A stretch of DNA of 64,000 bases from Petroclostridium xylanilyticum (GTDB taxonomy: Bacteria; Bacillota; Clostridia; SK-Y3), in NCBI RefSeq assembly GCF_002252565.1, contig NZ_NPML01000018.1, positions 186,001-250,000 of the forward strand, written 5' to 3'. Shown here one piece after another: positions 31,238-57,552 of this stretch. Position 1 is the first letter of the stretch; each line of letters begins with the position of its first letter. The notes beneath the pieces were generated by a model, which searched no databases, was not told where the DNA came from, and saw only the letters and a list, made by a program, of their open reading frames with translations. A program made the translations under genes and the position numbers.

Positions 31238-33514
31238 TCACCTCTCTAATAAAATGGTTTTGTATTTTCCGTTTAAAGCCCTAAGCAACTCCAGTTCCCT
31301 TTGCTGACAGGTAAAAAGGATAACCTGTCTTTCTTGTGCAATCCTTAATAAGGACGCCAGTATGTTGTTCAATCTTTCATCATCATACTGGGCAAAGGGT
31401 TCATCCATAATTAAGGGAAGAGCTTCTTTTGCTGACAGCATATGCGCTACCGCCAGCCTTAATGAAAAATAGGCCTGGTCGATTGTACCATTACTCAATG
31501 TGTTAAGGTTAAGGACTCCATTGTCCTTATCGTGGATAACTACATCCAAATCCGGACCGGTATCTACTTTATAATATTTACCGGAAGTAACGGCACTTAA
31601 GATTGTACCCGTGTGATGATTGAGCAGAGGTGTATAATTCTGCTGTACTTCCTTGAGTGATTGATGAAGGAAGTCTTTGGCTATTTCTATAGCTTCCTTT
31701 GTCTCTTCATATTCTTGCTTTTCATTTAAAGCTATTTGCAGCTGTTCCTCAATATCGCCCGGATGGCAGTATTCTTTTAATAGAATCTCCAATTCCTTGC
31801 TGCATGAACTGATATTCAGCTCTATTTCTTTGAGCTGCTGCTTCTTCGTTTCTATTAATTGTTCTACTTCTACGGCAGTCATGTTCTCTTCTATACCATA
31901 TTCCCCGGCAATCTGTCTGTATCGCTGATCATCTATTGGCTCTGAATGCTTCCAGTCGAGGCTTGCTGTTGTTTTATCTGCTATCTCCAAACTTTCACTC
32001 ACTGTAGCAATTTCTTTCTCACTTTCTTCCATCTGTCTTAATATTTCCATGCGGGCGTAGAAAGCTTGCTTTAACTCATGTATAACGGCAGAAAGCATAT
32101 CCTTTTCAATATCTCCAATTCCCTTTTGTGCTAGCTTCTTCAAAAGAGCCAGGTATCCTTCCTCTATTTTTTCAGAAATTTGCCTGTACTCACCATCAAG
32201 ACTCTGTATAAGTTTGTTAATTACCTGGAGGTCTTCATATTTCCTCAAACCAATACCCAGCTGTTGCTGCTTCAGTTGTAGCTGCTCCATCCTGTATTTT
32301 ATTCCACTGCTATAGTGGTAGAGCAGCATTATGATAATTGGAAACAAAAGGAATAAGGAATACCACAGCGGATGAATATCGCCTAATATAAGTGCTCCTA
32401 GTACTGACAGTCCGCTACTGGCAAAACCTATTATTTTGGCTATATTTAAATGGTTTTTCAACTCGGCTATCTTATCTTCAAGCAGCTGAACACGCACACC
32501 TGCCTGTCCAAAATTTTTACTCTCATGTTGAGTCTGCTGCTGTATTCTTTCTTTTTCGGTTGTCTGCAGTTCTATTTTATTTTTTAAGTCTTCGGCTTGT
32601 TTTTCCAGCAGCTTGATTCTTTCAAATTCTTTTTCAACATCCTGTATATCCTCTTTAACTATATTGGATATACTATTATACATAGCTAGCTGTTGTTCCA
32701 GCATCTTTCTCTTTTGTCTGCATTCCTCCAGCTTGTTTTTTAACTCCTCATAACGCTGTAATAATGGAAGCCTTTTATACTGCTTTATCATCGACAGTTC
32801 TTCTATCTCATTATGAATAAGCTGCAATTTCCCATTAAGCAGATTGAGTTTTTGCTGTAATTCCCGGGTTGTCTGAATATTTTTACATGCCTTTTCTTTT
32901 TCTGCCTGCAAATTCAAAATTGTTTGATTTACCTGGATTAATTTTTTATATTTTCCTGTGTTCCCCAATCCGATGGCATCCTTTATTTCGTCCAGCTTTT
33001 GAATGGCTTTATTGTAATCAATGTTCTCGTCACCATATTGGCTTAACCGTATAAGGCGTTCTATAATATCTTTACTACCTTTTTGTTCCATCTTTACTTC
33101 CATCTGCTTTACGAATACAGAAGATTCAAAAGCTGTAAGATTCAGTCCTGTCTGTTCTTCCATGAATAGGACATTCCCTTTTTTTACAGGAAATAAAGCT
33201 GTCACTTCTTGATAAGGTTCAGCCGTATATACTGATGCGGTTTTGCGGTTAAAATTCTTCTCTACCCTGTAAGTTTGTCCATTATCAAGTGTATATGTTA
33301 TGATATTCACTGCTCCAAATTCCTTCCGCCCCCAAGGCAGGTATTTCTTTTCTTCTTTTTTATCCGGATAGTACAACATGGCTTTTATAAATGCCTGAAT
33401 GGTAGACTTCCCCGATTCATTGGTTCCATATACAATATTAAAACCTTTGTCAAACTCTATCTCTTTTTTATCAAACTTGCCAAAGCCATTTATTAAGATT
33501 TGATCTATTCTCAA
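31238..33514 (-). CDS. yhaN: SbcC/Rad50-like ATPase (YhaN type)
   Basis: A 758-residue SMC-like ATPase from a TTG start with GAGGTG upstream. The N-terminal half-ATPase has Walker A 'GTNESGKSTIQAF' (about residues 31-43). A long coiled coil (about 170-700) is interrupted by two adjacent membrane-like segments near residues 358-400 ('IIGFASSGLSVLGALILG', 'WYSLFLLFPIIIMLLYHY'), a feature of YhaN rather than SbcC. The C-terminal half has the signature 'LSNGTIDQAYFSLRLAVA' and Walker B 'PLIMDEPFAQYDDERL'. It starts 13 bp after the yhaO-like nuclease gene, so the two should form an Mre11-Rad50-type DNA-end processing complex. Confidence 0.9.
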   Translation of the reverse strand: MRIDQILINGFGKFDKKEIEFDKGFNIVYGTNESGKSTIQAFIKAMLYYPDKKEEKKYLPWGRKEFGAVNIITYTLDNGQTYRVEKNFNRKTASVYTAEPYQEVTALFPVKKGNVLFMEEQTGLNLTAFESSVFVKQMEVKMEQKGSKDIIERLIRLSQYGDENIDYNKAIQKLDEIKDAIGLGNTGKYKKLIQVNQTILNLQAEKEKACKNIQTTRELQQKLNLLNGKLQLIHNEIEELSMIKQYKRLPLLQRYEELKNKLEECRQKRKMLEQQLAMYNSISNIVKEDIQDVEKEFERIKLLEKQAEDLKNKIELQTTEKERIQQQTQHESKNFGQAGVRVQLLEDKIAELKNHLNIAKIIGFASSGLSVLGALILGDIHPLWYSLFLLFPIIIMLLYHYSSGIKYRMEQLQLKQQQLGIGLRKYEDLQVINKLIQSLDGEYRQISEKIEEGYLALLKKLAQKGIGDIEKDMLSAVIHELKQAFYARMEILRQMEESEKEIATVSESLEIADKTTASLDWKHSEPIDDQRYRQIAGEYGIEENMTAVEVEQLIETKKQQLKEIELNISSCSKELEILLKEYCHPGDIEEQLQIALNEKQEYEETKEAIEIAKDFLHQSLKEVQQNYTPLLNHHTGTILSAVTSGKYYKVDTGPDLDVVIHDKDNGVLNLNTLSNGTIDQAYFSLRLAVAHMLSAKEALPLIMDEPFAQYDDERLNNILASLLRIAQERQVILFTCQQRELELLRALNGKYKTILLER

Positions 33515-33527
33515 AAAAATTCACCTC

Positions 33528-34637
33528 TTAATTTAACGCGTCCAATCCCAAATATAATGCTTTATACAGCTTCTTTTTCATTTGCTCATCCTGAGTCTTA
33601 TCAATTTCCTCCAGCATTTTTCTCGTAAATATTCCTTTGAGATTATATTGCTTGCATAGTTCTTCCAATTGATAGTCGGGACAAGTGTCATCTACTATCT
33701 TTAAATAAAAGCAGTGATGCACCAAGCGGGAGGTTATCAACTGAATATCCAAATCCATTTCCCTGTTTTTTCTCCCGGTCAAAATAATTTTGACAAAATC
33801 ATCAGTTAAGCTGTATAACTGCTCTTTCATATTGCTTTCAAGCTCATCAATGGTCGCCATATTGGAAATGTCCATCTCTTTGGTTATATATTGCCTCTTA
33901 TTCATTTTAATAAATTGAGTCGCAATGCCCTGTTTTGTTATCCTTCCAAGAATAATGCCATGATCTCCCGGTTCATCAAAACCCAGAGGTTCAGGACTGC
34001 CACAATAGACTGCTTTTACATCAGGATAATCTTTTCCCTGACCCATTTTGTGAATATGCCCAAGTGCAACATAGTCAAACCCCCAACGTTTGATATCAGT
34101 GCTTTTAACCGGGTGATAAGGACATTCCGATGAGATATTATCGAGTGTTCCATGGGTCACGAGTATATTGATTTTGGAATAATCCATATTTCTAAGTCCC
34201 GTCAGCATTGATTGGTACTGGTATTTGCCGGTGAAGCCTACTCCATAGATAGCTGCATTATATTCCGGTAATTCTATACTCTTCATCATATTTGTAAATA
34301 TATGTACATTGGAGGGCCAGTCCAGGGTAACATAATAGGAGTTCGCTACATAGGGGTCATGGTTTCCCGGAGAAATAAATATTTTTACACCAGGAATTCT
34401 CTTAAATTGGTTTATAATAAATTCCGCAGTATTTCTGCTTATATATTCATGCTCAAAAAGATCTCCGCTGATAAATAGTACATGTACTTTGTGTTTTATG
34501 ACTTCATCTATAATACGGGAAAAAGTATCTCCGATCTCCTGCCGTCTCTCTTTTGCTTTTATATTACTCAGCCCGGTTGCCGTAAACCGTGCATCCAGGT
34601 GTATATCTCCGCAATGAATGAAGGTGAGCTCCTTCAT
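33528..34637 (-). CDS. yhaO: SbcD/Mre11-like metallophosphoesterase (YhaO type)
   Basis: The protein has 369 residues from MKELTFIHCGD; a GGGGG 7 nt upstream selects this ATG. The calcineurin-like nuclease motifs are complete: 'HCGDIHLDARF', 'VLFISGDLFEHEY', 'FISPGNHDPY', 'ILVTHGTLD', 'YVALGHIHKMG'. The C-terminal part (about 260-369) is the capping domain. It is the Mre11-type nuclease partner of the following yhaN gene. Confidence 0.92.
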   Translation of the reverse strand: MKELTFIHCGDIHLDARFTATGLSNIKAKERRQEIGDTFSRIIDEVIKHKVHVLFISGDLFEHEYISRNTAEFIINQFKRIPGVKIFISPGNHDPYVANSYYVTLDWPSNVHIFTNMMKSIELPEYNAAIYGVGFTGKYQYQSMLTGLRNMDYSKINILVTHGTLDNISSECPYHPVKSTDIKRWGFDYVALGHIHKMGQGKDYPDVKAVYCGSPEPLGFDEPGDHGIILGRITKQGIATQFIKMNKRQYITKEMDISNMATIDELESNMKEQLYSLTDDFVKIILTGRKNREMDLDIQLITSRLVHHCFYLKIVDDTCPDYQLEELCKQYNLKGIFTRKMLEEIDKTQDEQMKKKLYKALYLGLDALN

Positions 34638-34817
34638 CTTTATTCCCCCAAACATATGTTTTTATCTATTTTATAATATATTTTGCTATATGTAAACTCT
34701 TGTCGCTCTACAACTTTTTCGCCAACATTCAAACATTCATATTTAAGCTAGCGCAATGAGTTAATTTATGTTAAAATAATTATGAGGAATAAATATAAAG
34801 GATATGGATATAAACAA

Positions 34818-34853
34818 ACAAATCCCAGGCAGAATACTCTCCCTGGGATTTGT
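34818..34853 (-). terminator. Terminator ending the tnpB-like / ncRNA transcript
   Basis: A perfect 12-bp stem (ACAAATCCCAGG and CCTGGGATTTGT) with a 12-nt loop. On the minus strand it is followed by TTTGTTTAT, giving the polarity expected for transcripts coming from the tnpB-like gene. Confidence 0.8.
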
Positions 34854-34968
34854 CGCAAGTTCGTCAGATAGCTGCACTTTCATGGATACCATGCTTACTC
34901 TGTAAGTTTCAACCCAATTTAAGGATATTTCCTGGCATCAGGTCATGGTGCGGCAGCAAAAACACCAT
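34854..34968 (-). ncRNA. Candidate guide (omega-like) RNA of the nuclease-dead TnpB homolog
   Basis: On the minus strand, right after the tnpB-like stop, there are several local stems. ATGGTG/CACCAT spans 34945-34968, and CCTG/CAGG and AGGA/TCCT sit around 34922-34942. Two abutting 5-bp hairpins follow: CTTACagaGTAAG (34894-34906) and CATGGtatCCATG (34881-34893), preceded by GGTTGAAA and followed by AAAGTGCAGC. About 20-25 nt of unstructured sequence then leads into the terminator. TnpB guide RNAs are known to come from the 3' end of tnpB and beyond, with the guide at the RNA 3' end, so the position fits. Exact scaffold/guide boundary unknown. RNA expression is inference. Confidence 0.55.
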
Positions 34969-34969
34969 A

Positions 34970-36574
34970 TTAAATTATTTGTATTAACTCATTCAAATCT
35001 TCAGCTTCTTCAAGCTTTTTTATTAAGCTATACTTTTTCATAAATTCCTTGTTTCTTGCATTACTGCTTATATTGCCATAAAAGTCCTGTATGATTCTTT
35101 TTATTTCTGTTGAAAATTCGTCCATACAGTTATGCGGATCACTAGGATGAAATTCCAACCCTAGTATTTTATTTGTAAATTTTATGCCTTTCGATGTTTT
35201 TTCAACTTTTATCTTAAGTGTTCCCTTACTATGCCGATTTAATTTCCGGGCTAGATTCAAGCTCCCTAAAGATTCAATATCCAAGGTGGTACCGCAGGCT
35301 ACGCATATAAACATATCTTTGGAAAATCTATTGCGTCTGGTATGCAGTCCACATTCAGGACATGTATAGTAAATACCTATTGGACTTACCTTAATAGGAG
35401 GCGGCAGGCCTTTGCCTCTCAATTTATATTCCAGTATTCTGGCCAATTGGTTATAGCTGTGGCAATTTAGTATCGGCATATATTGCTCTTTGTTTTCATC
35501 TATCCACTGCAGTTTATCTCCCTTATCAATTAAAGACTTCATTACCACTTGTGATCGTTCCTGATAGGCAATATCCACAATGGCATTAGCTATCTTATGA
35601 AGTTCCTGAATAGTTACCGGGTTATTCCTGCTTTCCGATACAGCTTTTGTCACTATAGCACCATCACTTATGATATTACTTCTGTTATCAACTATCGTAT
35701 AGTGGACAGGACTTTTAAGTGCTCTTCCTATACCTAAGAAAGTATCGGTTTTTATTTTTTCAGCCTCACCGGTATCAACACTGATAGATAGGTAATAATC
35801 GCCCTTTTTCTTAATAAGTCTTGCTGTTTTAAGGATTTCAGGAGTGTCTAATGCCTTTTTGAGATATTGCTCTTGCCACTGACCAAAAGAAAGTGGAACT
35901 AATATAAATCTTTCCTTTCTCCCGCTGCTTTCCAATATATTGCTATCCTTATGAATGTACCTAAGTTCTATTTCGTTATTGCTATTTATTTCTTTTCGTT
36001 TTTCATCCTTAACATTCATAAGATAAAGTTTTGCATAATACCTGTTATTTTTTGCATCATATAGTAAACAATAATCCCTGTTAGCAGCATAGCGGCAAAA
36101 GAATAACGGTTTTAACACATTATTCTTTTTTACTATTTTTTTTATTTCCCGCTCACATTCGTCTAACGTTTTACTGCCATTCTCCAATCCATTAATTGCA
36201 TCGTTATAGCTTTTCTCCAAATCCCGGTCGGATAAATATGCGATAGGATAGTTGGCATCCTGCCGGATTTCATTTAAACTCAAGTAGCTTGCCAGCGTCA
36301 TGCCAAAGTCTATCTTTAAGGCATCTTTAAAGGGTTGAACGTGGAACTGGTTGAGCTCTTTACTGAGCTCTTTATCCACCCACTTGGCAATGTTAATTGC
36401 CCTATAATTTCCCTTGTTATCTTTATAGTCCCTTCGTATCTCTTCTATTTGTGCGTGGGCCTTATCAAGGAGATACTGATAGGCACGGGAATAGTTGAGC
36501 ATGGCCTGATCTATAATTTGACGCTTACGTTTGCTGGGATTATGAAGTTTTAGAGTTATTGTTTTTATTGGCAT
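34970..36574 (-). CDS. Nuclease-dead TnpB/Cas12-like protein (candidate RNA-guided DNA binder)
   Basis: A 534-residue, uninterrupted TnpB/Cas12-type protein. The N-terminal oligonucleotide-binding region begins 'KTITLKLHNPSKRKR'. RuvC-I, II and III and a four-Cys zinc finger (C405, C408, C424, C427) are recognisable. Aligned with the intact TnpB at 56.5 kb, each catalytic acid is replaced: RuvC-I 'GIDLGLK' becomes 'GIGRALK' (G283), RuvC-II 'VLEDL' becomes 'VMKSL' (K346), and RuvC-III 'HDRDINAA' becomes 'LDIESLGS' (E434 for D). An 85-residue tail follows RuvC-III. DNA cleavage should be lost while RNA/DNA binding is kept. It starts 60 bp after adhE with no terminator between, so it is probably cotranscribed. 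No tnpA or IS ends were seen. Alternatives: a type V-like (Cas12m-like) orphan, or a decaying transposon gene. Confidence 0.82.
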   Translation of the reverse strand: MPIKTITLKLHNPSKRKRQIIDQAMLNYSRAYQYLLDKAHAQIEEIRRDYKDNKGNYRAINIAKWVDKELSKELNQFHVQPFKDALKIDFGMTLASYLSLNEIRQDANYPIAYLSDRDLEKSYNDAINGLENGSKTLDECEREIKKIVKKNNVLKPLFFCRYAANRDYCLLYDAKNNRYYAKLYLMNVKDEKRKEINSNNEIELRYIHKDSNILESSGRKERFILVPLSFGQWQEQYLKKALDTPEILKTARLIKKKGDYYLSISVDTGEAEKIKTDTFLGIGRALKSPVHYTIVDNRSNIISDGAIVTKAVSESRNNPVTIQELHKIANAIVDIAYQERSQVVMKSLIDKGDKLQWIDENKEQYMPILNCHSYNQLARILEYKLRGKGLPPPIKVSPIGIYYTCPECGLHTRRNRFSKDMFICVACGTTLDIESLGSLNLARKLNRHSKGTLKIKVEKTSKGIKFTNKILGLEFHPSDPHNCMDEFSTEIKRIIQDFYGNISSNARNKEFMKKYSLIKKLEEAEDLNELIQII

Positions 36575-36634
36575 AGAAATTCATCCTTAACCTAACAGGT
36601 AACTAAAAAATTGAGATTCAACAATACATTATTC

Positions 36635-39241
36635 TTATTTGCCGTAAGCTCGAATATAGATTTCTTCAAGTTCCTTTACCAACGGCATCCTTGGGTTTGC
36701 AGTGGTACACTGGTCTTCAAAGGCCTTGTCAGCTAGTTCTGGTACCTTCGCCATAAATAGCTTTTTGTCTACTTTACATTCAGCGATGGTTGATGGCACA
36801 TTGATTTCTTTCATTAAGTCTTTTACAGCCTTGATTAAGCTCTTTACTCCTTCTTCTGTTGTTGATGCAGGTAAACCAAGCGCTTTTGCAATTTCTGCAT
36901 ACTTCTTGTCTGCGATGAAAGTTTCATATTTCGGGAAGGATACAAACTTGCTTGGTTTCTGTGCATTGTATTCTATTACATGGGGCAGGAGAATGGCATT
37001 GGCTCTTCCATGAGGAATATGGAATTCTCCTCCCAGCTTGTGTGCAAGACTGTGGTTGATTCCTAAAAATGCATTTGTGAACGCCATTCCTGCAATACAG
37101 GATGCATTGTGCATTTTTTCTCTTGCTACACGGTCATTTCCGTTTTTATATGCTTTTGGCAGATATTCAAATACCATTTGGATGGCTTTGATTGCCAAAC
37201 CGTCGGTAAAATCAGAAGCCAGTACAGAAACATAAGCTTCAATTGCATGGGTTAATACGTCCATCCCGGTATCGGCAGTTACCGAAGGCGGTACGGTCAT
37301 TACAAAATCAGGGTCTATAATGGCAACATCCGGGGTTAATTCGTAGTCTGCCAGAGGATACTTCACATTTTTTTCTTTGTCGGTTATAACTGCAAATGAA
37401 GTTACTTCCGAACCTGTCCCCGAAGTGGTAGGAATGGCAACCATTTTTGCCTTTTTACCCAGTTTTGGGAACTTAAACACTCTCTTTCTTATATCCATAA
37501 ACTTTAATCTTAGAGAGTTAAAGTCGGTTTCAGGATGCTCATAGAACAACCACATTCCTTTTGCTGCATCCATTGCCGAACCCCCGCCTAGTGCAATAAT
37601 TACATCCGGTTGGAACTTATTCATCAAGTCGCAGCCCTTCTTAACGGTGTCTACCGATGGGTCGGGCTCAACTTCGGAAAATATCTCACAATGCACATAT
37701 TGTTGTCTTTTTCTGAGATAATATAATACTTTATCTACATATCCCAATTTCACCATATACGGGTCGGTAACAATGAATGCCCTGCTGATATCAGGCATTT
37801 TTTCCAGGTATTGAGTTGAACCGTATTCAAAATATATTTTTTCAGGAATCTTAAACCATTGCATATTGACCCTTCTCCTTGCCACTCTTTTCTTATTGAT
37901 TAAGTTTACTGCCGATACATTGGAAGTAGTGGAGTTTCTTCCGAAAGAACCGCAACCCAGTGTTAGAGAAGGCATATTAGTATTGTAAATATCTCCTATT
38001 GCCCCATGGCTGGATGGAGAATTTATAATTAACCTTCCTGCCTTGATTCTCTTTGAAAATTCCTCTATTACTTTTTCATTTTCTGAATGAATTACGGCTG
38101 AATGACCTAATCCTCCAAATTCAACCATTTCTTCTGCTCTTTTAATTCCCTGTTGGGCATTTTCTACAATATAGTATGCAAGTATTGGACTTAGTTTTTC
38201 ACGGGATAATGGGTATTGTGGTCCAACACCCTCCAGTTGCGCAATCAAAATCTTGGTATCCTGAGGTACATCTACACCTGCCATTTTTGCAATGGTATAA
38301 GCCGATTGTCCTACTACTGCCGCATTCATTGCGCATTTCTTTTCATCAATTGCAAGTTTTTCTACTTTTGCTATTTCATCCTTGTTTAGGAAATAGCATT
38401 TGTTTTCTTTCATAAAAGCTTCAAATTCTTGTGCTATCTCTTTATCTACTATTACCGCCTGCTCGGAAGCACATATCATTCCGTTGTCAAAAGTCTTTGA
38501 AATGATAAGGTCTGTAGCCGCTCTTTTAACATTAGCAGTCTTTTCTATATAGCAAGGCACATTACCCGGCCCAACCCCAAGTGCCGGCTTTCCGCTGCTG
38601 TATGCGGCTTGAACCATTCCGGAACCACCGGTTGCAAGAATTAATGCTACCCCTGGGTGATTCATTAATAATTGTGTTGCCTCCAGTGAAGGCTCTTCTA
38701 TCCAAAGAATACAATCCTCCGGTGCTCCTGCTTTTACAGCAGCATCTCTTACAATTCGGGCCGCTTCAGCACTGCACCTCTGTGCAGAAGGATGGAATGC
38801 AAAGATGATAGGGTTTCTGGTCTTCATTGAAATAATGCACTTAAACATTGTTGTAGATGTTGGATTGGTCACCGGTGTTACTCCGGCAATTACCCCTACC
38901 GGCTCAGCAACTTCCACATAGTCTTCAAGTTCATTTTCACTGATGATTCCAACAGTCTTGTCATATTTTATGCTATGGTAAATGTATTCTGTGGCAAAGA
39001 TGTTTTTAGTAATTTTATCTTCATATACACCTCTACCTGTCTCTTCAACAGCCATTTTGGCCAAGCGCATATGTTGGTCTAAACCTGCCATGGCCATGGC
39101 TTTGACAATATTATCAACTTGTTCCTGGTCTAACTCCATAAATTTATTTAACGCTGTCTGCGCTCTTGATACCAGGTTATCTATAGTTTGTTTTACAGTT
39201 TCTTCTTTTGTTGTTTCATTGATTAATACTTTTTCTGTCAT
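36635..39241 (-). CDS. adhE: Bifunctional acetaldehyde/alcohol dehydrogenase AdhE
   Basis: An 868-residue fusion that reduces acetyl-CoA to acetaldehyde and then ethanol with two NADH. Residues about 1-440 are a CoA-acylating aldehyde dehydrogenase with the catalytic Cys in 'FDNGMICASEQAVIV' (about C253). Residues about 455-868 are an iron-type alcohol dehydrogenase with 'ALGGGSAMDAAKGMW', 'PTTSGTGSEVTSFAVI' and the iron-binding 'HSLAHKLGGEFHIPHGRANAILL'. Length and order are standard; the family forms spirosomes. The promoter with Rex boxes lies directly upstream, so expression should rise at high NADH. The dead TnpB gene follows it. Confidence 0.97.
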   Translation of the reverse strand: MTEKVLINETTKEETVKQTIDNLVSRAQTALNKFMELDQEQVDNIVKAMAMAGLDQHMRLAKMAVEETGRGVYEDKITKNIFATEYIYHSIKYDKTVGIISENELEDYVEVAEPVGVIAGVTPVTNPTSTTMFKCIISMKTRNPIIFAFHPSAQRCSAEAARIVRDAAVKAGAPEDCILWIEEPSLEATQLLMNHPGVALILATGGSGMVQAAYSSGKPALGVGPGNVPCYIEKTANVKRAATDLIISKTFDNGMICASEQAVIVDKEIAQEFEAFMKENKCYFLNKDEIAKVEKLAIDEKKCAMNAAVVGQSAYTIAKMAGVDVPQDTKILIAQLEGVGPQYPLSREKLSPILAYYIVENAQQGIKRAEEMVEFGGLGHSAVIHSENEKVIEEFSKRIKAGRLIINSPSSHGAIGDIYNTNMPSLTLGCGSFGRNSTTSNVSAVNLINKKRVARRRVNMQWFKIPEKIYFEYGSTQYLEKMPDISRAFIVTDPYMVKLGYVDKVLYYLRKRQQYVHCEIFSEVEPDPSVDTVKKGCDLMNKFQPDVIIALGGGSAMDAAKGMWLFYEHPETDFNSLRLKFMDIRKRVFKFPKLGKKAKMVAIPTTSGTGSEVTSFAVITDKEKNVKYPLADYELTPDVAIIDPDFVMTVPPSVTADTGMDVLTHAIEAYVSVLASDFTDGLAIKAIQMVFEYLPKAYKNGNDRVAREKMHNASCIAGMAFTNAFLGINHSLAHKLGGEFHIPHGRANAILLPHVIEYNAQKPSKFVSFPKYETFIADKKYAEIAKALGLPASTTEEGVKSLIKAVKDLMKEINVPSTIAECKVDKKLFMAKVPELADKAFEDQCTTANPRMPLVKELEEIYIRAYGK

Positions 39242-39307
39242 TATAAAAACCTCCTTTTGAAAATTGTATTTATGTCAAATAGCATAATGGCTATTTATTT
39301 TTAGTTA

Positions 39308-39382
39308 TTGTTAATTATTTAACAATTATATTATAAAACATTGTTAATTATTTGTCAATATATATTGTTAAAAAAATAACAT
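39308..39382 (-). promoter_or_regulatory. adhE promoter with Rex operator boxes
   Basis: On the minus strand, TTGACA (39353-39358), a 17-nt spacer and TATAAT (39330-39335) form a consensus vegetative promoter. A perfect Rex box TTGTTAATTATTTAACAA lies at 39308-39325, just downstream of the -10. A second, TTGTTAATTATTTGTCAA (39341-39358), covers the spacer and -35. A weaker third (TTGTTAAAAAAATAACAT, 39365-39382) lies upstream. Rex represses such promoters when NADH/NAD+ is low; this is known for adhE in other clostridia. No rex gene is in the window. Confidence 0.88.
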
Positions 39383-39412
39383 TTTGATATTATATATAAT
39401 GTACTAAGCATC

Positions 39413-39462
39413 TTGTATGACTTGGTCAGGACTTCGACATGGGACCAGTTCCTCAATGCTAT
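39413..39462. repeat. Decayed REP element
   Basis: Plus-strand GACTTGGTCAGGACTTCG resembles the REP left arm GACTTGGGGACGGTTCG. The following CGACATGGGACCAGTTCCTCA is the complement of a worn TGAGGAACCGTCCCCATGTCG. An older REP insertion between adhE and the hydrogenase-operon phosphatase gene is the likely explanation. It and the Rex region account for the 297-bp gap. Confidence 0.55.
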
Positions 39463-39538
39463 ATTTGCCTTGGATGGGTAACATCATATATTTCATGACT
39501 CCAAGCTATTTTCATATTACGCTTATTATTTAATATTG

Positions 39539-40711
39539 TCAGTAATACTCTACGTTTACTTCCTTCCCCAGTCCCCGCAGGCATTCGGCCATTTCGTCAA
39601 CCAGCTTGAGTTTTATACTTAAGTTTAGTGGAAGCCCAGGGTTTTGGTGAGCGGGATTCATGGCCCTTCCAACAAAAAAGTTAACTTTTGTAGCTTGCTC
39701 TAGTAAGAGCTTGGCCAGTTGTGATGCTCCATCCTTTTGGTTCAATTTGAGAATATCCTGCATGGTACTCTCAGAGGAACAGTATTTTTTCAGGTAATCC
39801 AACGTTTTCCCCAGGGTTAAAACACCCTCCGTTGTTAGGTCTATTCCTTCTATCTCTGCTGCAGGAGGTATGGAAGGGTTGAAATAATTAAAATTAGTTA
39901 TAATCTCTTTTCCCAACTCCCTGCTTACAATTTGTGAAGTGGTACCGCCACATACAACCTTCTTTCCTTCTTGGGCAATGAATCTATCTACAACATAGCG
40001 GTCCTGCTGCCGGTCTACCGGAGGTCCTACCATTACACTGACTGTCATCGGATTTCTTACTTTTACAGCAACTACGGTTGCATCATCCCCCGGCTTTTGC
40101 ATGTATAAATTATCGCAAACCGATAATAGAAGTTTTGCAAGATTTTTAGCTGTAGTATCCGGTTTGTATACCCTCTGGATATATTCCTTTACATTTTCCC
40201 ACTGCCAACCCAGGTTTAACGTTCCACCTATCCCGGCATGAATTACGCCATCGCTTATCATAACAAACAGGTCTTCGGGGACAACCCTGAACCTGCTCTC
40301 TTTTATTATTTTACCCTTGATTGTTCTGATCTGCCTTTGTATATCAGCAAAGTTCCCTTTTTTGAGGAGAAGCACAGAAGGATTATCAAATTCTACAAGA
40401 TATGCATCCCCCGAATTAAAAATCTGTAATATTGAAAATGTTGAATAGGCTATTCCTCTTTCCCTACATTCCGGAAGTGTACTTGCGATTGTCTCCACTG
40501 CTTCTTCAATACTTGCACCATGTACCAGCATGGTCCCTATGATTTTACTTGTCAATGTAGCCAGTATATTGGCTTTAACACCACTTCCCAATCCATCTGC
40601 AAGTACAGCAATTACAGAATCTCTATTCCTAATAATTTCCACTTTATCGCCGCACAATTCTTCATTGTACTTATTTAAGCTTTCAAAGCTTGCTTCAATA
40701 AATAAACTCAT
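39539..40711 (-). CDS. PP2C/SpoIIE-type phosphatase of the hydrogenase-sensor operon
   Basis: A 390-residue protein. Residues about 1-225 are a SpoIIE-type PP2C domain ('VIAVLADGLGSGVKANILATLTSKIIG', 'FVMISDGVIHAG', 'GDDATVVAVKV'). Residues about 226-390 form a second domain beginning 'MTVSVMVGPPVDRQQD' that I do not recognise. It overlaps the hydrogenase-like gene by 4 bp (ATGA) and is the third gene of the operon. This arrangement matches known clostridial operons pairing a sensory [FeFe]-hydrogenase with a Ser/Thr phosphatase. It probably conveys the H2/redox signal to a phosphoprotein regulator; the target is unknown. Confidence 0.88.
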   Translation of the reverse strand: MSLFIEASFESLNKYNEELCGDKVEIIRNRDSVIAVLADGLGSGVKANILATLTSKIIGTMLVHGASIEEAVETIASTLPECRERGIAYSTFSILQIFNSGDAYLVEFDNPSVLLLKKGNFADIQRQIRTIKGKIIKESRFRVVPEDLFVMISDGVIHAGIGGTLNLGWQWENVKEYIQRVYKPDTTAKNLAKLLLSVCDNLYMQKPGDDATVVAVKVRNPMTVSVMVGPPVDRQQDRYVVDRFIAQEGKKVVCGGTTSQIVSRELGKEIITNFNYFNPSIPPAAEIEGIDLTTEGVLTLGKTLDYLKKYCSSESTMQDILKLNQKDGASQLAKLLLEQATKVNFFVGRAMNPAHQNPGLPLNLSIKLKLVDEMAECLRGLGKEVNVEYY

Positions 40712-42429
40712 TGCTCTTCACCAATATCTGATAGGATTGATTTTTTAAGTTTTGTCAGTGCTATTTTTGTCTCTGCCGTTGTCTCCCCCAGCAAACTAGC
40801 AATTTCCTGTGCCACCCGCATTTGTTTTTCTATAACTTTCTGAGCTATGTCTATTGTCTCGGAGCGGACCTTGTACATTTGCTGCTGCTGCTTCTCTTCT
40901 TTTGATATATCAGTCATTATTGCTATAATCAATTGCTGTTCTTTGATATACAGTATAGACTGTACGACGGTGATATCATATCTTTCATAATAATATTTCT
41001 TATTCAGAATATTTTGAGTTGTTTCTTTTACACGTTCAAAATCAGGACAATCAAGTACATCATATATATGCTTTCCCTGTACATCTGTCTTATCTAACCT
41101 AAATAACTGCTGTGCAGACTGGTTGAATTCTTGTATATATAAATTATCATTTAAGGCAATAATTGCATTTGGTGTTGCTTGAATGATGATATTGGAAATA
41201 GATTCGGCCCTTTCTCTCATATAGGGTAAGCACATGTGCAGCTCAGCCTTACCGTTATATACAGCTATTGCTTTTTCCTTGCAAGTAGGATAACCGCAGG
41301 CCCCGCAATTTAACTCTTTATCCTTGTTAAATTTCCCTATTTTGCTTAATATTTCCCTTATTGTTTCTTCGTCAGGTATTTTATAATCTTTGGATTTGTC
41401 TACAAATCTCTTTCCCAGCTTAACATCTACATCTTCAGCTACTGCAAAATTTATATCCCGCATGTTCTTTTTAACATATTCGGTTAACCTGTCTTTTGCG
41501 TCCAGGAAACCGCTTTTGGCTGATTTGATGCACGGTCCTCCCAGGCATCCCCCCGGACAGGCATTCATTTCAATAAAGTAGTTAGAGATTTGCCCTTCTT
41601 TTATGGAGTCCAATATGTTTATACACCGGTCAACGCCATCTACACTGACACATTTATATATTTTTCTTTCATCCTTCCCCAGTGTCCGGATGATTCCTCC
41701 GGTTGCTGGATAGAGTCTTGCCATCGGGTTTCTTGCACCTTTTGGTTCTTCACCTTCATCAACGCTAAAATCGACTCCTTCACTTTCCATCCATTTTTCC
41801 AGTTCTTCGAATGTAATAATTGCATTGACTATTCCATCATTCTGTAGATCATTACATTCTTCTTTTTTAGAAATGCAGGGCCCGATAAATACAATCTTTA
41901 TTCTTGAACCGTATACTTCACGCATCATTTTGGCGTGGGCAATCATAGGTGATACTACAGGAGCCATTTGATCGATGAGCTCAGGATAATATTTTTCAAT
42001 TAGGGCTACCGTTGTCGGACAGGCAGTAGTAATTATATTTTTCATCTTTTCTTCCCTTATAAGCTTTTCATATTCTTTAGATACCTGGGCTGCTCCTATA
42101 GCAGTTTCCTCCACATGTGTAAATCCCAGCCTTTTTAGAGCTGAAAATATCTTTCTACTGTCTGAAACTTGAAAAGCTGAAACAAAGGAAGGCGCAAGGC
42201 TTACATAAACCTTTTCCTTTTTCTCTATATATTTTTTAACTTTTTCAACATCACTTCTTACACTTTTTGCATTTTGCGGACAGGCCAACAGACATTGTCC
42301 GCATAATATGCATTCTTCTTCTATGATTTGTGCCTGCTCATTTTTAAAGGCTATCGCTTTAACGGGGCAGCTGCGAATGCATTTATAGCAATTTTTGCAA
42401 TTCGCTTCTTTAAATTGAATAATACCCAC
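40708..42429 (-). CDS. Sensory [FeFe]-hydrogenase-like protein with PAS domain (HydS/group C type)
   Basis: A 573-residue cytoplasmic protein. Two 4Fe-4S ferredoxin motifs (CKNCYKCIRSCP, CILCGQCLLACP) open it. The hydrogenase H-cluster region follows with altered motifs: L1 'TTACPTTVALIEKYYPEL', L2 'FIGPCISKKEE', L3 'MNACPGGCLGGPC'. Then come a further Fe-S motif (CGACGYPTCKEKA, near 384), a PAS domain (about 415-520) and a C-terminal coiled helix. L1 carries a single Cys in place of the TSCCP of catalytic enzymes, which together with the PAS places it with sensory group C hydrogenases rather than H2-evolving ones. Middle gene of the Rex-controlled operon; its upstream neighbour is a 2Fe-2S protein. 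Confidence 0.9.
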   Translation of the reverse strand: MGIIQFKEANCKNCYKCIRSCPVKAIAFKNEQAQIIEEECILCGQCLLACPQNAKSVRSDVEKVKKYIEKKEKVYVSLAPSFVSAFQVSDSRKIFSALKRLGFTHVEETAIGAAQVSKEYEKLIREEKMKNIITTACPTTVALIEKYYPELIDQMAPVVSPMIAHAKMMREVYGSRIKIVFIGPCISKKEECNDLQNDGIVNAIITFEELEKWMESEGVDFSVDEGEEPKGARNPMARLYPATGGIIRTLGKDERKIYKCVSVDGVDRCINILDSIKEGQISNYFIEMNACPGGCLGGPCIKSAKSGFLDAKDRLTEYVKKNMRDINFAVAEDVDVKLGKRFVDKSKDYKIPDEETIREILSKIGKFNKDKELNCGACGYPTCKEKAIAVYNGKAELHMCLPYMRERAESISNIIIQATPNAIIALNDNLYIQEFNQSAQQLFRLDKTDVQGKHIYDVLDCPDFERVKETTQNILNKKYYYERYDITVVQSILYIKEQQLIIAIMTDISKEEKQQQQMYKVRSETIDIAQKVIEKQMRVAQEIASLLGETTAETKIALTKLKKSILSDIGEEQ

Positions 42430-42430
42430 G

Positions 42431-42676
42431 TTATAACCTCCCCATTATACATTCCTTAAATTTTTGCTCAACATTTGATACGGTGATATCTTCGATAAAT
42501 TCATCTCCTACTTTTACCGAAACACCCTTGGTACAGCGTCCAAGACAAAAAGATGCCTTTAATTCCACTTTTCCTTCTAATCTATTTTTTTTGATTAGAT
42601 CCTGGAAAGTTTTGATGATATGATAAGACCCTTTAAGATGACACGAACTCCCTACGCATATATAAACCTGTAACAC
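42431..42676 (-). CDS. Thioredoxin-like 2Fe-2S protein (NuoE/HydC C-terminal type)
   Basis: An 81-residue protein with four cysteines in the thioredoxin-like [2Fe-2S] pattern, 'VCVGSSCHLKGS' near the start (read as ICVGSSC) and 'ASFCLGRCTKG' at about residue 44. It corresponds to the cluster-binding half of NuoE-type electron carriers. It is the first gene of the operon, one base ahead of the hydrogenase-like sensor, and should feed or drain electrons from it. Confidence 0.88.
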   Translation of the reverse strand: MLQVYICVGSSCHLKGSYHIIKTFQDLIKKNRLEGKVELKASFCLGRCTKGVSVKVGDEFIEDITVSNVEQKFKECIMGRL

Positions 42677-42721: not shown

Positions 42722-42773
42722 TTGTTAAATCATTAACAATTAATATTATAAATGTTTGTTAATTTATTGTCAA
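42722..42773 (-). promoter_or_regulatory. Hydrogenase-sensor operon promoter with Rex boxes
   Basis: On the minus strand, TTGACA (42768-42773), 17 nt, TATAAT (42745-42750). A perfect Rex box TTGTTAAATCATTAACAA lies at 42722-42739 just downstream of the -10, and a partial one, TTGTTAATTTATTGTCAA, at 42756-42773 overlaps the -35. The layout is the same as at adhE, so the two units should respond together to NADH. Confidence 0.87.
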
Positions 42774-42840
42774 TTATATGATAACTCTTTTAGATACGGT
42801 TTTTTATATCAATTATTTTGTCAGATATGGTTTTTCATTA

Positions 42841-49666: not shown

Positions 49667-50635
49667 TTATCCAACAAGGGAGTTCGCCCATTTACCGCAC
49701 TTGTCGCCCCACATGGCCACTGTCTTACCGTTTAAATCCACCTTGATTACTTCACAACTGTTGGCACAGCCACCACATTCGATACTTGTAGGGTTGAATT
49801 CAAAATCTGCCGCACCAAAGCCTCTGAATTTAGTGGTATCGCCTGTTTTCTTGATATGTTCCTTGGCAAGAATGGCAGCACCTATTGCCCCCATTACATT
49901 ATAGTGCTGGGGTATGATTATTTCACATCCAACTTCTTTTTCAAAAGCTGCCTTAATTCCCTTGTTTGCTGCTACACCGCCTTGAAAAACATAGGGGGGT
50001 TTAAGGTTCTTTCCTCTACCGAGATTGTTGATATAATTCCTTACTAATGCATCACATAGCCCCTTAATAATTTCAGCTTTTGAAAATCCGTATTGCTGTT
50101 TGGCAATCATATCTGATTCAGCAAATACAGTACACCTTCCCGCTATTCTTACATCTTTTTTAGCTGTGAGGGCAAGATCCCCGAATTCCTGAATTGGAAC
50201 TCCCAGCCGCTCAGCCTGGTGATCCAGGAAGGAACCGGTACCTGCTGCACAGACAGTATTCATGGAAAAGTCTACTACCATCTTGTCTTTGATAATAATG
50301 ATTTTTGAATCCTGACCTCCGATTTCGAAGATAGTACTTACGTCAGGATGAAAATGTACCGTTGCAGCGGCATGGGCTGTTATTTCATTTTTAATGATAT
50401 CTGCCCCTACCATGATACCCGCTAGCTGCCTGCCGCTTCCTGTTGTCCCTACACCAGCTACACAGTCAAAAGTACCATTGAGGCTTTCCTCCAGCAATTT
50501 TAACCCTTTCTTTACCGATTCCAGCGGCTGCCCGTTGGTACGTATGTATTCCTTGAAAACTACATTATAATTTTGGTCAATAGCTACAACATTGGTGCTT
50601 ACCGATCCCACATCTATTCCTATGTATATTTTCAT
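49667..50635 (-). CDS. 2-hydroxyacyl-CoA dehydratase activator-type ATPase (BadF/HgdC family)
   Basis: A 322-residue ASKHA-fold ATPase starting MKIYIGIDVGSVSTNVVAID. The phosphate loops and cluster Cys are visible: 'GVGTTGSGRQLAG', 'IFEIGGQDSKIIII', 'FSMNTVCAAGTGSFLDHQAERLG', 'RCTVFAESDMI', 'FQGGVAANKG'. In archerases two subunits share one [4Fe-4S] cluster and use ATP to pump an electron into a dehydratase. An extra C-terminal 'ECGGCANSCEV...GDKCGKW' adds four or five cysteines, perhaps another cluster. It is the last gene of a three-gene operon whose other two members resemble the dehydratase subunits. Confidence 0.9.
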   Translation of the reverse strand: MKIYIGIDVGSVSTNVVAIDQNYNVVFKEYIRTNGQPLESVKKGLKLLEESLNGTFDCVAGVGTTGSGRQLAGIMVGADIIKNEITAHAAATVHFHPDVSTIFEIGGQDSKIIIIKDKMVVDFSMNTVCAAGTGSFLDHQAERLGVPIQEFGDLALTAKKDVRIAGRCTVFAESDMIAKQQYGFSKAEIIKGLCDALVRNYINNLGRGKNLKPPYVFQGGVAANKGIKAAFEKEVGCEIIIPQHYNVMGAIGAAILAKEHIKKTGDTTKFRGFGAADFEFNPTSIECGGCANSCEVIKVDLNGKTVAMWGDKCGKWANSLVG

Positions 50636-50701
50636 AATATGCTCCACTCCCTGTTTTTATCACTAATAAGCATTTATACATTCTACAAATATAGTGCAAA
50701 A

Positions 50702-50777
50702 AAGTTCGGAGCTCGGAGTTCGGAGTTCGGAGAATTTTAACTTTTCACTATGAACTCCGAACTCCAAACTCCGAACT
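50702..50777. repeat. CGGAGTT-type tandem inverted repeat
   Basis: AGTTCGGAGCTCGGAGTTCG.. repeats a CGGAGTT word four times, then after about 20 nt returns as AACTCCGAACTCCAAACTCC. It can form a long hairpin between the activase start and the stop of its upstream neighbour. Possibly an mRNA processing or attenuation structure; no known family. Confidence 0.6.
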
Positions 50778-50780
50778 ATT

Positions 50781-51935
50781 TCATCCTGCCAACTCATGTT
50801 CCGTATATTCCGTAACCCAAGTATCTTCTTGCTCTTCTATTTCTTTTGTATTTTGTGCTTTCTTTTTATTGCGTACGAGATCTATAAAAGCTTCTATCCT
50901 GGTTTGGTTATTGGCCGTACCCATCTGTTCATCTAAAGAAAGAGACAGTATAGGCAGCTGCAGCTGTTTTGAAATGGCAGGTATAGCACTTTGGGTTACT
51001 AATTCCGGTAAACATCCAAAGGGCATAAGATGGATAATCGCATCAAAACCCCGTTCTTTAAAATCCACCATCCATCCTATATTTTCCATATCATGCCCGC
51101 CACAATTTATTTTTACAAATCTTCTCGCTTTTTTTATAACCTGATGAGCTTTACTGGCACCTATCAATCTCGGTTGGATATTATGGTTTACCCAGTTGGA
51201 GATGTATTGTACATTTTCTACTTCTATGCCTATGTTGTTCAGGGTCTGTTCAATATCCATATTTACTGAACTTTCCATAATTACATAGATTTCTCCAACG
51301 ATTCCTACTCTTATCCTTTCTCCTTCCGCAACTTTTCTTACCGGAACGTCGGCCAGCATTTGCCTTGCTTTTTTACTTATATTGTCAAGGTCTCTTTTCG
51401 TCCAGCAACCATCGTACATCTTTTGAATTTCAGCCCAGACACGGTTGAAGTCTCCTCTTTTCTGCTCATAAGCCCGCAGTATTTTAATTTTCTTTTCTAT
51501 TTCATCCATCTGGCAAATAATCTGATAACTAAACCAGATATCCTTAAGTAACTTTATAATAGATGCACCGTTTCTTACTCTGTTCAAATTTTTATAAAAT
51601 TCTCCAAAATCTCTGAACATGGAATCAAAAATTATTACTTCAACGTCGTATCCCATGCTTTTTAAGATTCGCTGATGAATCTCACCATAGAGGCCGGCTC
51701 TGCAAGGGCCATGCCCTCCGGATGAAATAATGACTTCTGCTCCTGCCTGTGCCGCTTCAATATATGTCCCCATCATTACCTTAAATGGAAAACAAATAAA
51801 TTCAGGACTATATTTTACCCCCAGGTCGATTGTCCTTTGAGTAGGCTTATGAGGCATAATCACTTCATGTCCAAGCAGTTCTAATACTTTTTTATATCCC
51901 GTAACACATCCCATATAGGGAAAAGAGATCTTCAT
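50781..51935 (-). CDS. DUF2229-type 2-hydroxyacyl-CoA-dehydratase-like protein (second subunit)
   Basis: A 384-residue protein starting MKISFPYMGCVTGYKKVLELLG, with the acyl-CoA dehydratase-like core 'YSPEFICFPFKVMMGTYIEAAQAGAEVIISSGGHGPCRAGLYGEI' (Cys in 'EFICFP' and 'GPCRAG') and 'HLMPFGCLPELVTQSA'. These cysteine positions match proteins that bind an Fe-S cluster in the HgdB/DUF2229 group. It overlaps the preceding gene by 4 bp (ATGA) and is followed by the activator ATPase. The substrate is unknown. Confidence 0.82.
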   Translation of the reverse strand: MKISFPYMGCVTGYKKVLELLGHEVIMPHKPTQRTIDLGVKYSPEFICFPFKVMMGTYIEAAQAGAEVIISSGGHGPCRAGLYGEIHQRILKSMGYDVEVIIFDSMFRDFGEFYKNLNRVRNGASIIKLLKDIWFSYQIICQMDEIEKKIKILRAYEQKRGDFNRVWAEIQKMYDGCWTKRDLDNISKKARQMLADVPVRKVAEGERIRVGIVGEIYVIMESSVNMDIEQTLNNIGIEVENVQYISNWVNHNIQPRLIGASKAHQVIKKARRFVKINCGGHDMENIGWMVDFKERGFDAIIHLMPFGCLPELVTQSAIPAISKQLQLPILSLSLDEQMGTANNQTRIEAFIDLVRNKKKAQNTKEIEEQEDTWVTEYTEHELAG

Positions 51936-52933
51936 GCAGGTTCTCCCCTTTGCTCTGCAAACTTTTTTCTTTTTATCATATCAACGAAAGCTTCAATCCT
52001 TGTCAAAAGATGGCTTTCTCCCGTGTGCTCGTCCACCCTCAGCGTCATAAAAGGCTTTTTGTAGTTTTCACTATCCAGCTCAATTAATTTACCCGCAATG
52101 GAATCCGGACCGCACCCAAAAGCTGTGACATGGATAAGGCCATCTACTTCAGGATTTCTCATCAGGTTAGCAGCGGTCCCATACACTTTATCGGTGAATG
52201 TCCAGTATAGCCTTTTTGATTTTTTCCCAAACCTGTTGGAAATTTCTTTTTCATCCATCATTTCGAAAGTAATAACTCTTACGTTCATCTGCCGCAGTTT
52301 TTTAATAATATCCATACTTACAAAAGAATCATAGATGTTATAGACATACCCCAGAACGCCTAAGGTAATTTCAGAATGTCGTTCTGATAAGATCTGCTCT
52401 TTGCTCACACCATGATTACACACCTGTTCCGCTTCTTCTATTGTAAGACCTTCCTTGCAACATTGCCTGAACTGCTGCCAGGAACGTGCTGCTGCAGCCA
52501 TTGCTTTTTTTAACTCTTTCTCCCTTATCTCGAGAATATCACAAAGCGGACGGTAGCTGCTCCATTCACAGGTATCTTCTTTTTTACCATTAATGTCCAG
52601 TGTTAATATTTTTTCTTTTGCCCCGTCAATCGTATAACTTACCAATTCCGGCAAACCTAGAAACTTTGGACAAAACCATTTTTTGGATTCTATACTTACA
52701 AAGCGGGGAACAAAAATATAGTCTACATCCTTGGACAGAAGGTTTATTACATGCCCGTTAAATATTTTTATCGGAAGACATATCTCAGGCACCGTCACTT
52801 TTATACCTTTTTGAATTAGTTCTTTAGAAGTGATATCAGATATGACTATTTCTGCACCTAACTGCTCAAATAAGCATTTCCATAAAGGATAGTAATAATA
52901 GTAAATTAATGCCCGCGGCAAACCTATCCTCAC
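51932..52933 (-). CDS. DUF2229-type 2-hydroxyacyl-CoA-dehydratase-like protein (first subunit)
   Basis: A 333-residue protein starting MRIGLPRALIYYYYYPLWKCLFEQLGAEI. 'TVPEICLPIKIFNGHVINLL' and 'HVTAFGCGPDSIAGKLIELDSE' carry the conserved cysteines of the DUF2229/HgdB-like group. First gene of the operon. In many clostridia homologs of all three proteins of this operon are fused into one very large protein; here they are separate, coupled by overlap. The role is unclear: it may be a reductive dehydratase or a double-cubane-cluster-type reductase. Confidence 0.82.
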   Translation of the reverse strand: MRIGLPRALIYYYYYPLWKCLFEQLGAEIVISDITSKELIQKGIKVTVPEICLPIKIFNGHVINLLSKDVDYIFVPRFVSIESKKWFCPKFLGLPELVSYTIDGAKEKILTLDINGKKEDTCEWSSYRPLCDILEIREKELKKAMAAAARSWQQFRQCCKEGLTIEEAEQVCNHGVSKEQILSERHSEITLGVLGYVYNIYDSFVSMDIIKKLRQMNVRVITFEMMDEKEISNRFGKKSKRLYWTFTDKVYGTAANLMRNPEVDGLIHVTAFGCGPDSIAGKLIELDSENYKKPFMTLRVDEHTGESHLLTRIEAFVDMIKRKKFAEQRGEPA

Positions 52934-56481: not shown

Positions 56482-57552
56482 TTACATGGCTAATTTTAGT
56501 AGATTTTTTGCTGCATTTATATCCCTATCATGTTTTGTATGGCAATTTGAACATTCCCATTCCCTTATGTTGAGTTTTTTTACATCTTTGTTTTTATATC
56601 CACATATGCTGCATATTTGACTTGATGCATAGTTTTTGGGTGCTATTATTATTTCTCTACCATACCATTTCGCCTTATATTCTAACATTCTTCTAAATTC
56701 ATACCACGATACTTCTCCTATAGCCTTTGATAAATTGTGATTTTGCTGCATATTCTTTACCTTCAAATCCTCTAAAACTATAACTTGGTTTTCGTTTATA
56801 ATTTTAGAGGATAATTTGTGTAGAAAGTCTTTTCTTTGATTTGATATTTTTTCGTGTGATTTTGCAAGTCTTATCCTCGTCTTTTCGTAATTTCTACTTC
56901 CTTTTTGCCTTCTTGATAATGCCTTTTGCACTTGTTTTATTTTTTTTTCTGTTTTTCTTAACCACTTTGGATTTTCTACCCTTGTTCCATCTGAAAATAT
57001 TGCAAATTCCTTCAACCCTAAATCTATTCCTACCCTATTATCTACTTTAGGTAAAGTTTGAATTTCTGCTTCCGCCAATACCGAAACATAATATTTACCT
57101 GTTGGTGTTTTAGATATAGTTACTGATTTTTTAATCCCTTCAAATTGCCTGTGTTGTTTTATCTTTATTTTTGTTTTCAACTTTGGTATCTTTAAGTATC
57201 CATTATCTATACTTACTGTCCCATTTTGATTATTTGTTGTGTAAGATTGATATCCTTTTTTCTTCTTGAATTTTGGAAAACCTATACTTTTATCCCTAAA
57301 AAAGTTGTTATATGCTTTTTCTAAATTAAGTTGAGCATTAGCAAGGGCTAAACTATCTACTTCTCTTAGAAAAGGATATTCTTTTTTATATTTTGCAGGA
57401 GTTGTTTTTATCATTTTTCCTGTTTGTTTATAATAATCTATTTTATCTGATAGCATTTTGTTGTATATAAATCTTACACAACCAAATACTTTAGCAAAAT
57501 ATTCTTGTTGTTCTTTTGTTGGGGATATCCTATATTTATAGGCTTTAAGCAC
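56482..57552 (-). CDS. tnpB: TnpB RNA-guided endonuclease, intact
   Basis: A 356-residue IS200/IS605 OrfB. All RuvC acids are present: '[16 protein letters not shown]' (about D195), '[10 protein letters not shown]' (about E281), '[12 protein letters not shown]' (about D347). The zinc finger is complete ('[10 protein letters not shown]', 'CSNCHTKHD'). The N-terminal '[30 protein letters not shown]' is standard. It provides RNA-guided cleavage that helps retain the element. It ends in the motif-rich right end that encodes its own RNA, and is the internal reference used to judge the dead homolog at 35 kb. Confidence 0.93.

Follow-up and report, generated by a model that had tools for sequence, protein, structure and literature searches.

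TldRs are TnpB-derived, RNA-guided regulators with inactivated RuvC domains whose targets include oligopeptide-transport genes, and natural dCas12f proteins acting with a sigma factor provide RNA-guided activation of transcription. TldR repressors with flagellin targets have also been described (PMC13418256). In fermenting bacteria, the output of H2 and ethanol has been proposed to be under the control of group C sensory [FeFe]-hydrogenases, and the regulator through which these HydS/HfsB sensors act is left unnamed (PMC6776011, PMC5707799). In Ruminococcus albus, a 111-fold drop in co-culture was seen for a gene cluster that codes for a group C hydrogenase with its phosphatase, a ferredoxin hydrogenase and a bifunctional alcohol dehydrogenase (ADH); the authors propose that H2 is sensed via downstream regulators that they do not name (PMC6776011). 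In T. saccharolyticum, deletion of hfsB raises adhE expression and ethanol (PMC5707799). Here we describe a locus of Petroclostridium xylanilyticum (contig NZ_NPML01000018.1) in which a sensory hydrogenase and a phosphatase are followed by adhE and by the gene for a nuclease-dead TnpB-like protein (hereafter dead TnpB). The stretch analysed, referred to as the window, is 64,000 nucleotides (nt) long, and its coordinates are used throughout. We consider it probable that dead TnpB and a fixed short guide act together as an RNA-guided activator that is gated by an H2 sensor and switches on the transcription of genes for H2 and alcohol metabolism.

A conserved family of nuclease-dead TnpB proteins

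34970–36574, minus strand: nuclease-dead TnpB/Cas12f-like protein, 534 amino acids, with G283, K346, E434 and the zinc-ribbon cysteines C405, C408, C424 and C427

The gene is an open reading frame (ORF) with an ATG start and no internal stop, beginning 60 bp past the end of adhE, and is the sole copy in its genome. When the protein is aligned to the intact TnpB of the window (56482–57552), its catalytic positions are seen to be G283, K346 and E434 and all four zinc cysteines are kept; the ORF and the alignment thus bear out the intact 534-codon frame, the replacement of D, E and D, and the retained cysteines given in a preliminary description of this DNA. The intact TnpB is an ordinary IS200/IS605 protein (NF038281, E 9.6e-148) at a position unrelated to that of dead TnpB. 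Dead TnpB matches the Pfam family Cas12f1-like_TNB (PF07282, E 4.5e-7), and Cas12f is its closest profile in a defence library. Structure prediction, proposed in the preliminary description, gave an AlphaFold model (predicted local distance difference test, pLDDT, 86; predicted template modelling score, pTM, 0.57) that is closest to AsCas12f1 (Z 18.8, root-mean-square deviation 6.5, 349 residues; query residues 2–452), and the structure search also returns TnpB folds and the dCas12f entries PDB 9n9c and 9n9m, which we take to be linked to sigma-factor activation.

Homologues are present in four of seven genomes of the same order (its own genome counted; 62–75% identity), and a class sample of 391 genomes has them in 14; there is one copy in each. 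More broadly, single-copy in-frame homologues with 33–75% identity are found across many genera of Clostridia, and Petroclostridium, Ruminiclostridium, Caloramator, Clostridium, Christensenella and Caproiciproducens are among the genera represented in the 28 named loci; cultured carriers include Ruminiclostridium cellobioparum and R. papyrosolvens. None of 27 aligned homologues has the RuvC-I Asp (Ser in 16, Ala in six, Gly and Thr in two each, Val in one), the RuvC-II Glu is retained in nine, and the RuvC-III position is occupied by Glu (18), Asp (six), Lys (two) or Gly (one); the zinc cysteines are present in all. The earlier statement that precisely the three active-site acids are lost therefore holds for the window protein but not as a rule of the family, in which the RuvC-II and RuvC-III positions vary. 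The ratio of nonsynonymous to synonymous substitution rates (dN/dS) is 0.10–0.12 in the two closest pairs of homologues and 0.18 in a third, which indicates purifying selection on dead TnpB.

A full-length relative on a Pseudoalteromonas (P. spongiae) plasmid (L302, 2971–4437) has the motifs MGIDRG, VIEDL and HADIVGALN and an apparently intact active site, and if this protein reflects the ancestral state the loss of the first RuvC Asp is derived. The search of plasmids and phages for relatives returned distant TnpBs only, and that of viral contigs returned none. An unannotated stretch of Pseudoalteromonas phage J2-1 (L303, 2501–3562; MF370964.1, 85864–86925) encodes a distant relative with 27% identity over residues 96–444. 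No earlier report of the family was found in the open-licence literature, which is not proof of absence.

A structured RNA with a putative short guide

34864–34968, minus strand: pseudoknotted scaffold RNA and first seven guide nt (covariation; model match E 5.7e-25, the only copy in the genome)
34855–34870, minus strand: putative guide, 5'-UAUCUGACGAACUUGC, with nt 1 at 34870, running up to the terminator stem
34810–34852, minus strand: intrinsic-terminator-like hairpin with T-rich tail, ending the RNA

A conserved RNA lies directly 3' of the dead-TnpB gene in every locus with downstream DNA available, as illustrated above for the window. It has two hairpins, one with GCUGC in its loop and the other reading YYUACAGAGURRG; the GCUGC loop forms a pseudoknot with GCAGC, a strand that sits just before the guide. 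The pseudoknot is kept in all 33 RNA sequences, six of them through two-sided changes (GCUAC/GUAGC, GCUGU/ACAGC). Across the alignment 98.6% of cells are paired, 10 of the 15 pairs show double changes, the pseudoknot included, and the covariation score is 0.407, compared to 0.210 for shuffled alignments and at most 0.089 for slid controls. Of 26 genomes with the protein, 25 have exactly one match to a covariance model of the RNA, and the RNA of the other has a long insert; among 21 genomes without the protein the model gives one marginal match (E 0.009). An Rfam search returned chance-level matches only.

Past the pseudoknot the RNA reads guide-like UAUCU(A/G), and a terminator-like hairpin usually follows 3–18 nt after the pseudoknot, the start of its stem being a model estimate. 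A longer guide after UAUCUGA was considered and exact matches of 9–16 nt were sought locus by locus, with no consistent target; the idea was dropped because the terminator often begins within about 10 nt. The RNAs of L039 and L048 have long insertions in the variable part and the guide UAUCUGUGCAU. Dead TnpB presumably binds this downstream RNA, and the presence of a candidate guide RNA next to the gene is what the TldR-type reading of the preliminary description would lead one to expect; the RNA, its guide and the targets do not figure in that description.

Elements matching the putative guide at hydrogenase and alcohol dehydrogenase promoters

42823–42834, minus strand: target element 1 of the hydS operon, AAAACCA-TATCT, with nt 1 at 42827, the guide match extending over TATCTGAC; 54 nt from the -35 hexamer
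42792–42803, minus strand: target element 2 of the hydS operon, AAAACCG-TATCT, with protospacer nt 1 at 42796; 23 nt from the -35 hexamer

An element, AAAACCN-TATCTA, occurs upstream of hydC or hydS in loci with dead TnpB, and in P. xylanilyticum elements are also found before hydCBA (L272), an iron alcohol dehydrogenase gene and a gene for an NfnA-like ferredoxin:NADP oxidoreductase. The match between guide and element begins at the first base after the RNA scaffold, and the order in the DNA, a transposon-adjacent motif (TAM) followed by the guide sequence on the same strand, is the TnpB/Cas12 arrangement. The CC directly 5' of TATCTA is TAM-like but imposed by the search pattern; the A tract that accompanies it on the 5' side is TAM-like as well and was not imposed. 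Most genomes have a TAM-flanked site with a 6-nt seed match (G-T wobble allowed), reaching 10–11 nt in some; the first hydS site matches the guide over 8 nt in the window and over 10 nt in L023. In Caproiciproducens position 4 has changed from C to T in both the guide (UAUUUA) and the DNA (TATTTA), and when guides are permuted between genomes the matched prefix has p 0.009 by species and 0.023 by clade. Guidance by a 6-nt seed is likely on these grounds, and a seed of this length has been measured for an Enterobacter TldR (PMC13418256).

The elements also follow the protein. Among intergenic exact matches to AAAACCNTATCTA, 11 of the 15 in genomes with the protein lie before hydrogenase, ADH or nifH genes, compared to 0 of the 14 in relatives without it. 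By our own tally 24 of 34 protein-bearing genomes have an element at hydC or hydS. In 30 genomes that lack the protein, a search of 600 bp upstream of one hydC per genome found no AACCN-type element and two weaker TCCG matches. The Fisher p value for this co-occurrence is 8e-10 with genomes treated as independent, and such values are optimistic because related genomes are not. One Ruminiclostridium-group genome (L232, G401:C335 near 18313) has a AAAACCATATCTA element 318 bp upstream of a nifH-like gene, a site that would add nitrogenase to the regulon.

Distances between protospacer nt 1 and the -35 hexamer were measured at 37 sites and are 51–54 nt at 18 of these, 39–42 nt at six and 23–25 nt at four; the best 4-nt distance bin in shuffled sequence holds no more than three sites. 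The spacing classes differ by about one and three helical turns, and the promoters with set spacing (hydS, hydC and ADH) belong to different families, though some are homologous to each other. Class-I activators sit at such upstream positions on bacterial promoters, and fixed distances between site and -35 are activator geometry. Since the predicted sites lie upstream of -35 and not over the promoter, the arrangement is that of an activator rather than a repressor; a TldR-like protein or a new class of such proteins had been anticipated for this locus, and the nuclease-dead TnpB and its RNA agree with that expectation, but the position of the sites does not agree with a repressor.

Association with a sensory hydrogenase and a phosphatase

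42431–42676, minus strand: first gene of the operon, an ORF for an 81-amino-acid cysteine-containing protein, ferredoxin-like by eye
40708–42429, minus strand: HydS/HfsB-like sensory [FeFe]-hydrogenase with PAS domain, 573 amino acids (PF02906, E 7.1e-56; PAS, E 4.6e-7)
39539–40711, minus strand: SpoIIE/PP2C-type phosphatase, 390 amino acids (PF07228, E 4.9e-16)
36635–39241, minus strand: adhE, intervening between the phosphatase and dead TnpB only in some clades
42745–42773, minus strand: hydS operon promoter, TTGACA-17-TATAAT, with Rex-like boxes over the promoter
39296–39359, minus strand: adhE promoter, TTGACA-17-TATAAT at 39358–39330, with Rex-like boxes

All 28 named loci have the order hydS, phosphatase, (adhE), tnpB on the same strand, the preceding pair in each being a PAS-containing sensory-type [FeFe]-hydrogenase and a SpoIIE-type phosphatase, and these two are the only universal neighbours of dead TnpB. 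The module has the H-cluster domain, PAS domain and SpoIIE/PP2C-type phosphatase of sensory (group C) [FeFe]-hydrogenase systems, H2 sensing itself being predicted. The hydCBA genes adjoin it in about half of the loci, and adhE intervenes in a minority, including the window. The preliminary description had linked dead TnpB to adhE across 60 bp without a terminator. We also found no terminator in that gap, but the constant partner is the hydrogenase and phosphatase pair; of the two traits to be followed through the homologues, loss of the RuvC-I Asp proved universal and the adhE linkage clade-specific. In four relatives hydCBA comes after the sensor and phosphatase and dead TnpB is absent, so the pair can also occur on its own.

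Rex-like boxes overlap many of the element-bearing promoters, the hyd promoters among them, and together with those at adhE they agree with an earlier remark that the locus is under Rex control; NADH and H2 signals may thus be combined at these promoters. A HATPase_c protein is encoded within hydrogenase operons at L175 (1366–1932, minus strand) and at L051 of P. xylanilyticum, and an element precedes a HATPase_c gene in G410; this protein could be a kinase opposing the SpoIIE-type phosphatase. Elsewhere in the window, positions 49667–52933 contain a run of ORFs that resemble CoA-enzyme activases and 2-hydroxyacyl-CoA dehydratases, as judged by eye from the translations.

Proposed mechanism and alternative explanations

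What can be read from the genomes is the protein family with its module and RNA, and the elements with their spacing and their co-occurrence with the protein. Together these suggest a mechanism in which the RNA would select the elements, binding would activate transcription, and the sensor and phosphatase would control dead TnpB. The protein would bind the structured RNA whose sequence adjoins its gene on the 3' side, and this RNA would present, beside the pseudoknot, a short guide that evolution has kept fixed (5'-UAUCUA or UAUCUG); the complex would read 5'-(AAAA)CCN as TAM and then TATCTA at a few promoters, in P. xylanilyticum those of the hydS operon (two sites), hydCBA, the iron alcohol dehydrogenase and the NfnA-like oxidoreductase. 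Being nuclease-less, it would remain on the DNA, upstream of -35 by about 52 nt and of the start by about 88 nt, and assist RNA polymerase in class-I fashion; the sensory hydrogenase and the phosphatase would relay the H2 signal to dead TnpB, and Rex would act on the same promoters via NADH/NAD+. The chances are about even that the system works in this full form, as a TnpB-derived class-I activator whose one invariant guide of about 6 nt serves several promoters in the manner of a classical regulon, with an H2-sensing hydrogenase switching the activator via a phosphatase.

TnpB ancestry and the presence of an intact IS200/IS605-type TnpB 20 kb away might suggest a decaying transposon gene near adhE, but the single copy, the same position in 28 of 28 loci, a dN/dS of about 0.1 and the conserved RNA already refute this, and we regard it as exceedingly improbable. 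The scattered sites, intact catalytic residues and one-strain linkage that the preliminary description named as signs of decay were not what we found; this is a conserved single-copy family that has stayed beside a hydrogen sensor over a very long time, and the conserved neighbourhood, purifying selection and candidate guide RNA favour the domesticated, nuclease-dead protein tied to redox metabolism that was proposed there. A guide-bound complex at the same elements might instead repress, by blocking RNA polymerase or other factors, as the experimentally described TldRs do (PMC13418256), and the nearest sites, 23 nt upstream of -35, could hinder polymerase. The main sites, however, are 39–54 nt upstream, at fixed distances roughly whole helical turns apart and at unrelated promoters, and set distances count against repression because occlusion would not need them; we judge repression quite unlikely.

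A further explanation is that AAAACCNTATCTA is the site of an ordinary regulator, or of dead TnpB acting free of RNA, with the RNA having another role and the likeness to UAUCU arising by chance. Several observations weigh in this direction and against RNA guidance. Only six letters are consistently common to guide and element, there is no consistent match past nt 6, the guide lacks the AT-rich bases that follow TATCTA in the DNA, and covariation at positions 7–10 alone is not significant (p 0.21); an invariant 6-mer could equally be read by an ordinary DNA-binding protein. Conservation at the TATYT positions is partly imposed, as the site lists were collected with that pattern. Seed mismatches occur in L027 (guide UAUCCAG, site TATCTAAT) and L100 (guide UAUCUAG, site TATTTAT), and no element was found at hydC or hydS in Christensenella, Caloramator, L039/L048 or L089. 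A genome-wide count of the short motif gives no excess over the reversed pattern, and context and spacing were used instead. On the other side, the match falls exactly at the TnpB guide start with a TAM-like CC directly 5', the C-to-T change at position 4 and clade-specific extensions are common to guide and target, and elements are present at these promoters only where the protein and RNA occur. We therefore think an ordinary binding site unlikely and favour the RNA-guided activator.

The predicted targets are the same kind of genes as those affected in R. albus and T. saccharolyticum, a likeness of genes and not a claim that dead TnpB is present there. Dead TnpB is a named candidate regulator for group C sensors, complete with an RNA, predicted targets and spacing, and if the proposal is correct it would supply the output so far missing from group C [FeFe]-hydrogenase signalling in these bacteria. 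RNA-guided transcription factors would then include, beyond repressors, an activator that acts on central energy metabolism and is coupled to a metabolic sensor, and the case would show a programmable guide turned into a fixed regulon code. There is a practical side for biofuel work, in that hfsB and rex mutations alter ethanol yield.

Comparison with known systems

The system resembles the TldRs in being TnpB-derived with an inactivated RuvC, in its adjacent candidate guide RNA, in a predicted TAM and short 6-nt seed, in its stable link to non-transposon genes without mobility, and in having predicted target sites near promoters. It differs in that TldRs repress with locus-specific guides, whereas here one fixed short guide fits several promoters and the partner is an H2 sensor with its phosphatase; and where TldRs occupy the promoter for repression, the predicted sites are upstream of -35, by 23–54 nt and with fixed spacings. 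Cas12f (type V-F) provides both the closest solved fold (AsCas12f1) and the closest defence-library profile, but dead TnpB lacks catalytic residues, has an extra C-terminal tail of about 85 residues, and has an RNA of single-guide type 3' of its gene; a search of window positions 33000–40000 found no CRISPR array, and there are no adaptation genes among the universal neighbours. Like dCas12f-sigma systems, it has a nuclease-dead Cas12f-like protein proposed as a transcription activator; unlike them, it has no sigma factor among its universal neighbours, and the sites are upstream of ordinary -35/-10 promoters. Finally, the HydS/HfsB systems (R. albus HydS and T. saccharolyticum HfsB) have the same sensor and phosphatase pair and the same target enzymes, hydrogenase and adhE, and several relatives have this pair by itself, whereas the module in the window has a dead TnpB and its RNA built in.
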